Shown in pieces: positions 32,593-47,596 of a stretch of 61,397 bases of DNA. Source of the DNA: Oscillospiraceae bacterium (GTDB taxonomy: Bacteria > Bacillota > Clostridia > Oscillospirales > Acutalibacteraceae); contig SVPH01000016.1 of the NCBI GenBank assembly GCA_015065965.1, forward strand, positions 1-61,397, given 5' to 3'. Position 1 is the first letter of the stretch, and the number at the start of each line of letters is the position of its first letter. The notes beneath the pieces are model-generated. The model saw nothing but the letters and a program-made list of their open reading frames with translations, ran no database searches and had not been told where the DNA came from. The translations under genes were made by a program, and so were the position numbers.

Positions 32593-32620
32593 AAAAAACT
32601 CCGATAAAAAATCATCGGAG
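32593..32620 (-). terminator. terminator after the broken tRNA-Arg copy
   Basis: On the minus strand, CTCCGATGAT pairs with a near complement ending CGGAG and is followed by TTTTTT. It matches 32792-32819 apart from one base, showing duplication. Confidence 0.85.
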
Positions 32621-32622
32621 CA

Positions 32623-32791
32623 TGGCACCCCCTGCGAGAATCGAACTCACAACTGACCCTTAGGAGGGGCCAATGTATATTACGAGCAAAGCGAGTAACA
32701 AGGTTTTGGAGCGGAGCGACAAGTTCTTATTACGAGCAAAGCGAGTAACAAGGTTCTGATGCGCCAGCATCAGGTTCTTATATCCATTAAC
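32623..32791 (-). pseudogene. broken tRNA-Arg copy with hairpin insertion
   Basis: Bases 32623-32671 repeat the anticodon arm, T arm, acceptor and CCA of the intact tRNA-Arg exactly. Bases 32778-32791 retain only D-arm sequence (GTTAATGGATATAA on the minus strand). The acceptor 5' strand is missing, with the upstream terminator T run fused to the D arm. About 105 bases of hairpin repeats separate the halves. It cannot fold as a tRNA. Confidence 0.85.
32680..32777. repeat. tandem hairpin modules inside a tRNA-Arg copy
   Basis: Modules in order: TTACGAGCAAAGCGAGTAA, then TTGGAGCGGAGCGACAA, then TTACGAGCAAAGCGAGTAA again, then CTGATGCGCCAGCATCAG, separated by AAGGTT or AAGTTCTTA. The first three share the plan stem-GA-GC-loop-GC-GA-stem, giving tandem G-A mismatches inside the hairpin. 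Confidence 0.85.
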
Positions 32792-32819
32792 AAAAAACTC
32801 CGATGAAAAATCATCGGAG
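32792..32819 (-). terminator. terminator of tRNA-Arg
   Basis: CTCCGATGA-TTTTT-CATCGGAG on the minus strand, then TTTTTT. Confidence 0.9.
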
Positions 32820-32821
32820 CA

Positions 32822-32896
32822 TGGCACCCCCTGCGAGAATCGAACTCACAACTGACCCTTAGGAGGGGCCTGTTATATCCATTTAACTAAGGAGGC
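32822..32896 (-). tRNA. tRNA-Arg (CCU)
   Basis: 75 bases. Acceptor GCCTCCT/AGGGGGT has G-U pairs at 1-72 and 4-69. D arm is GTTA/TAAC. Anticodon arm GGCCC-CTCCTAA-GGGTC gives anticodon CCT. T arm is GTGAG-TTCGATT-CTCGC, and CCA is encoded. The G1-U72 closing pair is unusual. It is the only complete copy in a block of three. Confidence 0.93.
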
Positions 32897-32926
32897 AAAT
32901 ATTAAATTTAGATGTTTTAAAATTGC

Positions 32927-33009
32927 GCCTGTTATTACGAGCAAAGCGAGTAACAAGGTTCTCGAGTGTAACGCACGAGAGGTTCTTATATCCATTTAAC
33001 TAAGGAGGC
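32927..33009 (-). pseudogene. 5'-half tRNA-Arg remnant with hairpin insertion
   Basis: Bases 33009 down to 32986 repeat the first 24 bases of tRNA-Arg exactly. After about 50 bases of hairpin modules the tRNA sequence resumes as ATAACAGGC and then diverges. ATAA is found on both sides, like a target duplication. It lies directly behind the tRNA promoter, so it is probably transcribed with the intact copy. Confidence 0.82.
32936..32985. repeat. hairpin modules in the 5'-half remnant
   Basis: TTACGAGCAAAGCGAGTAA is followed by CTC-GA-GTG-TAACG-CAC-GA-GAG, again a hairpin with tandem GA mismatches, then AGGTTCTTATATCC. Confidence 0.82.
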
Positions 33010-33025
33010 ATATTCAACTTTGACT

Positions 33026-33054
33026 ATTCTACCAAAAACCCATTGTAAAGTCAA
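33026..33054 (-). promoter_or_regulatory. promoter of the tRNA-Arg block
   Basis: On the minus strand TTGACT, 17 bases, TAGAAT, about 17 bases before the remnant copy. The only promoter seen for the block. Confidence 0.85.
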
Positions 33055-47137: not shown

Positions 47138-47596
47138 ATGAATGACAACAGTAGTTTAACACATACAAAATGGAATTGCAAATATCATATCGTATTTGCA
47201 CCGAAATACAGAAGAAAAATCTTTTACGGAGAACACAGAGAAGAAATAGGAAAGATATTAAGAGAATTATGTAACTGGAAACAGGTAAACATAGTTCAAG
47301 CAGAAGTATGCCCAGATCACATACATATGCTCGTAGAAATTCCACCGAAAATGAGTGTTTCAGGTTTCGTAGGATTTCTCAAAGGAAAAAGCACATTAAT
47401 AATCTTTGAGCGTCATGCGAATTTGAAGTATAAGTATGGAAACAGAAGTTTTTGGTGTAGAGGATATTATGTGGATACAGCAGGAAAGAACGATAAAAAG
47501 ATAGCTGAATACATAAAAAATCAGTTGGATGAAGATTTGGTACATGACCAAATGACGCTCAAAGAATACACTGACCCGTTTACGGGTAGCAAGTAA
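47138..47596 (+). CDS. tnpA: IS200-type transposase TnpA
   Basis: 152 aa, full length. The HUH motif is in CPDHIHMLV, and the catalytic Tyr is in the YxxxQ motif EYIKNQ near the C-terminus. It cuts single-stranded DNA at IS ends. The ATG at 47138 follows AAAAGGAGG; a longer upstream frame crosses the IS end and is rejected. No tnpB is present, so it is IS200-like. It appears intact. Confidence 0.94.
   Translation: MNDNSSLTHTKWNCKYHIVFAPKYRRKIFYGEHREEIGKILRELCNWKQVNIVQAEVCPDHIHMLVEIPPKMSVSGFVGFLKGKSTLIIFERHANLKYKYGNRSFWCRGYYVDTAGKNDKKIAEYIKNQLDEDLVHDQMTLKEYTDPFTGSK

Follow-up and report, generated by a model that had tools for sequence, protein, structure and literature searches.

On one contig of a draft genome from a gut bacterium of the Oscillospiraceae, an intact tRNA-Arg(CCU) gene stands between two partial copies of itself, both interrupted in the D arm by short hairpins, and the question that this locus raises is what filled the two breaks and how such copies came to lie beside a working gene. 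The window, by which we mean the whole stretch of 61,397 nt that was analysed, is contig C6 of a draft assembly of 2.33 Mb in 56 contigs that is 86% complete. We propose that the hairpins are units of a REP-like, target-choosing element, here called E, that is nested in non-functional tRNA copies, a reading that we rate as slightly better than even.

Layout of the tRNA-Arg(CCU) block

The block occupies 33009-32598 on the minus strand, and reading of the sequence together with ARAGORN and Rfam bears out an earlier note on this DNA, which had described a tandem of related tRNA-Arg sequences with a whole middle copy (Table 1). Read along the minus strand, the block opens with GCCTCCTTAGTTAAATGGATATAA (33009-32986), then come hairpins and the intact gene. 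Behind the terminator of that gene stand GTTAATGGATATAA, further hairpins, and a CCA-bearing 3′ half that extends to 32623, with another terminator after it. The intact gene thus has a 5′ part on its upstream side and, downstream, a copy from the D arm onward, both of them interrupted at GGATAT|A and, as the earlier note had seen, filled there with short hairpin repeats. Its account of what the partial copies retain needs some adjustment, as the proximal copy does keep its 5′ part up to the D arm but the tRNA resumes for about 7 nt (AACAGGC) past the hairpins, and the distal copy does keep a 3′ half and terminator but is more than a 3′ half since it begins at the D arm.

Table 1. Features of the tRNA-Arg(CCU) block, in the direction of the minus strand
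Feature	Position	Strand	Remarks
Promoter-like site TTGACT-17-TAGAAT	33026..33054	-	Upstream of whole block; best-placed minus-strand promoter match
Proximal partial tRNA-Arg copy, 5′ end to D arm	32986..33009	-	
E unit 1, single, in proximal copy	32934..32987	-	R1 61.4 bits
Resumed 7 nt of tRNA (AACAGGC) and second leader	32897..32933	-	
Intact tRNA-Arg(CCU), CCA encoded	32822..32896	-	ARAGORN; Rfam RF00005 54.3 bits
Predicted terminator of intact copy	32797..32820	-	
D-arm start of distal partial copy (GTTAATGGATAT)	32780..32791	-	
E unit 2 in distal copy	32729..32779	-	R1 74.3 bits
E unit 3, tandem, in distal copy	32679..32728	-	R1 64.5 bits
Distal tRNA-Arg copy, 3′ part with CCA	32623..32678	-	
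Predicted terminator of distal copy	32598..32621	-	Near-identical duplicate (repeat family D2, 98%)

The Rfam tRNA cut-off is passed on contig C6 by 6-78 and 32825-32896 only. A second tRNA called by ARAGORN at 32623-32696 extends into the hairpins and has no Rfam support; a split or permuted tRNA is ruled out by the intact, uninterrupted CCU gene. The hairpin TTACTCGCTTTGCTCGTAA occurs three times in the window (at most 2 mismatches) against 0.00 expected, it has no further exact occurrence in the organism's own genome, and a block search of that genome found no second DNA-similar copy. A site like the promoter-like site of the window directly precedes the intact tRNA in three relatives that lack the 5′ copy (G061, G062, and G017). 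The 5′ remnant is likely co-transcribed with the intact gene because it lies between the predicted promoter and that gene, while the downstream remnant, behind a predicted terminator, probably is not.

Structure, targets and distribution of element E

A unit of E begins with AAGAACC and continues with a variable hairpin, the stretch GAACCTTG, a hairpin of the form TTAC-TC-GC, loop, GC-TC-GTAA, and a final T. The first hairpin is a palindrome whose sequence is free. Units are 44-61 nt long in a short form and 74-97 nt in a long form, and extraction by script gives 77 distinct short and 12 distinct long units, one of the latter being two fused units. The element is present in low copy number, holds no gene and has no terminal inverted repeats. 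In an alignment of 43 units with 13 pairs (A2), 92.4% of 550 cells pair, and 74 paired cells have changed on both sides, in 10 of the pairs, compared with 5 that have changed on one side. None of 500 shuffles of A2 reaches the covariation score or three other measures, although 25 of 500 reach the pair-type count, and all six partner slides fall far below the true register, with the signal destroyed. A gap-free alignment of 17 units (A1) agrees with A2, with 64 of 500 shuffles reaching the pair-type count. The scarcity of one-sided steps, 5 of 79 changed and still paired cells, suggests that the hairpin is kept at the DNA level. Folded as single-stranded DNA, the window's units are no more stable than shuffles (z from −1.14 to 0.24), and this absence of excess stability, taken as evidence by itself, counts against a DNA-level hairpin.

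Within the genus the E core (at most 1 mismatch) is present in 33 of 45 genomes, the organism's own included, and a reversed control in 0 of 45. The flanks are nearly always T|E|A: of 79 distinct arrays extracted by script from the loci examined, 76 are preceded by T and 77 followed by A, and G is the commonest base at −6 (61/79) and −5 (64/79), counts in which many arrays have three tRNA sites in common. Entry appears to be at T|A, mostly where G and A dominate the preceding bases (GGATAT|A, GGGGTGT|A, GGGGAAT|A), but the joint varies, with one extra T when the right flank starts with G and, at REP-like sites, a C of the empty form absent. By flank motif, 35 of the 60 distinct arrays of the genus set lie in copies of tRNA-Pro (14, in 5′ copies), tRNA-Arg (11, in D-arm copies) or tRNA-Gln (10, in 3′ copies, antisense), 7 are at REP-like sites, 4 at one stop codon and 14 elsewhere, 3 of these last being within 82 nt of tRNA-Pro, tRNA-Gln or tRNA-Val. 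ARAGORN places a tRNA within 300 nt of 32 of the 60. At stop codons the T together with the initial AA of E forms TAA, and one viral contig also carries E, apparently at a stop codon. The earlier note had thought repeated insertion into the D arm odd. The arrangement does recur beside an intact gene in records of Clostridia, but the emphasis on the D arm is too narrow because the same filler family also occupies tRNA-Pro 5′ ends, tRNA-Gln 3′ ends, REP-like palindromes and stop codons; the common D-arm break fits a preference of E for sites like GGATAT|A.

Several loci hold variants. A weaker copy of E in the organism's own genome (G000:C30:601-646, L275; 34.3 bits) adjoins tRNA-Ser and tRNA-Thr genes. 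L065, L119, and L140 have an E-like stretch, AGAACC...AGAACCTTGTTAC, that may adjoin the end of a reading frame and has no match to the E model at E ≤ 0.001. The 5′ partial tRNA-Arg copies at L263 (G060), L016 (G004), and L018 (G010) contain a diverged two-hairpin insert without AGAACC, with a spacer of about zero to the intact gene in G060. At L041 (646-883) two complete-looking tandem tRNA-Arg genes each have E in the D loop with both halves kept, and an intact gene at 331-405 lies beside this pair with a run of N between them.

Outside the genus, the word ATGGATATAAGAACCT gives at least 115 matching stretches, among the listed ones of which 27 match the E model at the tRNA-Arg D arm. These are not 27 independent cases, because six of them belong to genomes that the genus set also contains and one isolate is represented by two entries, and the set is uninformative on how frequent E is elsewhere, the word itself including the D arm. 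ARAGORN finds a CCU tRNA within 700 nt in 23 of the 27; among the remaining four, L036 is masked, L051 and L056 are cut, and L071 is broken at the anticodon loop. A search of the order with the E model, in which 24 candidates per genome were scored, finds E in at least 5 of 245 genomes, the organism's own included. In an even sample of 394 genomes of the order, the exact D-arm word is present in 125, and in 3 of these it is followed by TAAG (G000, G124, and G426); G124 lacks a full E. Two D-arm words within about 210 bp occur in 7 of the 125, namely G000 and G426, which have E, G124, without a full E, G354, G436, and G169, which are broken at the anticodon loop, and G407, which is broken further on. 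Matches to the block occur in 21 plasmid and 25 phage records, none over more than 80% of the block, and the best 8 in each set cover 17-23%, on the tRNA. A faecal phage record (MT835598.1, 14702-14776) contains a 75-nt stretch that is 94.7% identical to the tRNA-Arg(CCU) of the block.

Filled and empty sites, known systems and the search for a mobiliser

Sites with and without E can be compared directly at a gene ending in VEEAMK, the end of which was matched in 34 of 45 genomes, with 30 loci read. E is at the stop codon in G030, G066, G013, and G022, in each case that of the only matched copy of the gene, a decayed piece is there in the organism's own genome, 24 loci have nothing alike and one is unreadable. 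The full gene copy in G061 is clean, and four tandem E units lie in a partial second copy of the gene's end. The tRNA locus beside pgk, read at 30 loci in one of which no pgk start was recognised, has E upstream, downstream, on both sides or on neither among relatives, and it is E-filled or E-free in relatives whose upstream sequences are alike. In G020, compared with the window, the 5′ and 3′ copies have exchanged the single unit and the pair. Several relatives have a different type of tRNA-Arg at this locus, or none. In ten loci (L241, L243, L244, L245, L247, L253, L256, L306, L307, and L309) tRNA-Arg(CCU) is broken at the anticodon loop (CCTCCTAA|) and another tRNA-Arg follows, and in L308 it is broken further on. 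These anticodon-loop breaks and the change of tRNA-Arg type beside pgk are possibly remnants of integrase attachment.

E shares features with several known systems. Palindrome-associated elements derived from IS200/IS605 lack terminal inverted repeats, have hairpins close to their ends that include an internal loop, and enter 3′ of a short motif. E resembles such passengers in lacking terminal inverted repeats and in having a short preferred motif on its 5′ side, but no parent element with matching ends was found in 20 Y1 loci searched by pattern and some others searched by eye. Rickettsia palindromic elements are palindromic repeats within genes, whereas E was seen at stop codons and in broken tRNA copies, a distinction drawn between descriptions rather than sequences. 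Integrative elements that target tRNA genes likewise place tRNA fragments beside a whole tRNA, but the block has neither cargo nor a recognised integrase and its joint is in the D arm rather than the anticodon loop or 3′ end. MITEs have terminal inverted repeats and target duplications, whereas the ends of E, AAGAACC and CGTAAT, are not inverted copies. As to a target duplication, E has TA on both sides but an extra T when the next base is G. REP/BIME sequences with RAYT (Y1) enzymes are, like E, short imperfect palindromes that are dispersed, gene-less and found in tandem runs. PMC3733652 gives REP/RAYT systems a GTAG or CGTC tag, and no such tag was seen by eye at the hairpin feet of 89 E units; E differs further in that the RAYT-type genes of the genus carry other palindromes and that E sits inside one such kind of palindrome. 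No description of E was found in titles, abstract openings, and passages of PMC3733652 and PMC8040213.

A search for PF01797 in the 45 genus genomes and a survey of Y1 loci found no mobilising enzyme for E. The Y1 transposase (PF01797) is encoded in 26 of the 45, with one gene in the window, and G031, which is 97% complete and has 8 E cores, has no match to it. The E pattern is absent from 20 Y1 loci searched (L206-L225), and no E was seen at the flanks of 14 RAYT-type genes read by eye. We rejected the idea that E belongs, as their palindrome, to the RAYT-type genes that lie between pgk and tpiA, the flanks of which carry other palindromes, and the idea that it is a part of the window's IS200-like gene, which has different end hairpins. 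That gene, for a Y1 transposase, lies at about 47138-47596 on the plus strand, with end hairpins CCCCTGGCTGTGCCAGGGG and CCCCCGGCTTAGCCGGGGG unlike E. In L226-L229 (G023, G062, G011, and G008) pgk and tpiA are separated by a RAYT-type Y1 gene, with the tRNA-Arg locus about 1.5 kb away, and the window has none at that position. E was also rejected as a known structured RNA or a group I/II intron, as Rfam matches only tRNA in the window at gathering score, and four E loci compared with Rfam at E ≤ 1 have no match over E.

Proposed nesting in spare copies and its alternatives

E is nested in spare copies of tRNA genes, and the mechanism that we favour starts with the tRNA-Arg(CCU) gene being partly duplicated twice in place, which would have provided two such copies. 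Each would then have taken E at the identical preferred site, with selection keeping the functional copy clean, an order in which duplication presumably came first and E second. The element would be moved by an enzyme acting in trans and would persist where it does little harm, as at stop codons, in palindromic repeats and in partial tRNA copies. Tandem stacking probably arises since the right end of E (...GTAAT|A) is again a target.

The order of events can be turned around, such that E, choosing its site and with no integrase involved, enters a tRNA gene that is essential and single-copy, while a partial duplication, direct or inverted, arises in the same event by template switching or by unequal sister exchange at the hairpins, so that the tRNA end is rebuilt, an intact gene remains and the host survives, as would have been repeated in tRNA-Arg, tRNA-Pro, and tRNA-Gln of Clostridia. 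We regard this self-rescuing insertion as a tentative alternative that is unlikely, though far from negligible. All 12 palindromic tRNA-Pro leaders that were found without using E carry it, one in decayed form, and by eye some 5-12 nt separate E from the junction where the tRNA-Arg copy is a 5′ one. Leader copies resemble each other more closely inside one locus than across loci (mean score 9.7 versus 3.9, 0 of 20000 permutations, 23 of 25 loci usable), implying that the duplications are recent, repeated or homogenised, but 2 of the 23 leader pairs (L011 and L041) are not pairs of an E copy and an intact copy. An uninterrupted same-strand copy of the flank pair is found within 700 bp at 38 of 79 arrays compared with 52 of 1091 control positions, although some of these copies are dispersed REP-like repeats. 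Duplication also accompanies E outside tRNA genes, in a local 24-nt direct repeat in L031 and in the partial copy of the protein gene's end in G061. Against coupling stand the four genomes with E at the stop codon of a sole matched gene copy, and partial tRNA-Gln 3′ copies without E in four genomes (G036, G032, G023, and one in G066), which hold another hairpin-rich insert and which overturn the idea that partial copies never lack E. At L324-L327 partial tRNA-Gln 3′ copies are closed by an inverted piece of the T arm around a hairpin-rich insert containing ACAGTCCACCGGACTGT. Among the loci read, no 5′ partial tRNA-Arg copy lacks E or an E-like insert, except where the break is at or beyond the anticodon loop. 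The one tRNA-Arg 3′ copy without E, that of G124, continues as AAGGACTG, which from its sequence may be a decayed start of E, and this copy therefore decides nothing on the order of events. The tRNA-Pro leaders, the lack of an E-free 5′ tRNA-Arg copy, the partial copy in G061 and the G124 copy together hint that E and duplication can arise together. On the whole we hold nesting to be more likely than coupling, and coupling to be possible for some tRNAs.

The partial copies might instead be attachment-site leftovers of integrases that use tRNA-Arg(CCU), with E having come along, and the anticodon-loop breaks with a change of tRNA-Arg type at the same locus in several relatives would fit this, as would the tRNA-like stretch of the faecal phage record. 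The anticodon-loop breaks, however, are without E and the E breaks are in the D arm, E is also found at stop codons and REP-like repeats, no integrase was recognised by eye among the window's open reading frames, and loss of an island would be required at every locus, so that we consider such an origin improbable. It is very improbable that the 5′ remnant together with E acts as a leader RNA tuning tRNA expression. The remnant is downstream of a predicted promoter, and in the minimum-energy fold its GCCUCCU pairs with the intact tRNA's 3′ acceptor strand (z −2.12), but E is sense to tRNA-Arg and tRNA-Pro and antisense to tRNA-Gln, it is found at stop codons and downstream of terminators as well, the intact tRNA of several relatives has no upstream E, and one-sided steps of the G-U type are rare. 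As modelled, the pairing with the acceptor strand would be a possible cost. An assembly collapse, which the earlier note had named as a refuting explanation, is scarcely credible, since separately assembled records repeat the layout with different hairpin sequences, even though the genus genomes are draft assemblies of many contigs.

With nesting as the preferred reading, the block beside a working tRNA gene in a gut bacterium looks like the work of a little-known family of mobile hairpins rather than damage to one gene. As a palindrome family E is well defined and open to testing, since its targets are sharp, both filled and empty sites exist, and covariation is strong and two-sided with few one-sided steps, and it offers a way to study the spread of gene-less hairpins for which no transposase is obvious. 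The block illustrates too that tRNA genes collect dead partial copies, and that a tRNA finder can miscall such a copy as a second tRNA.
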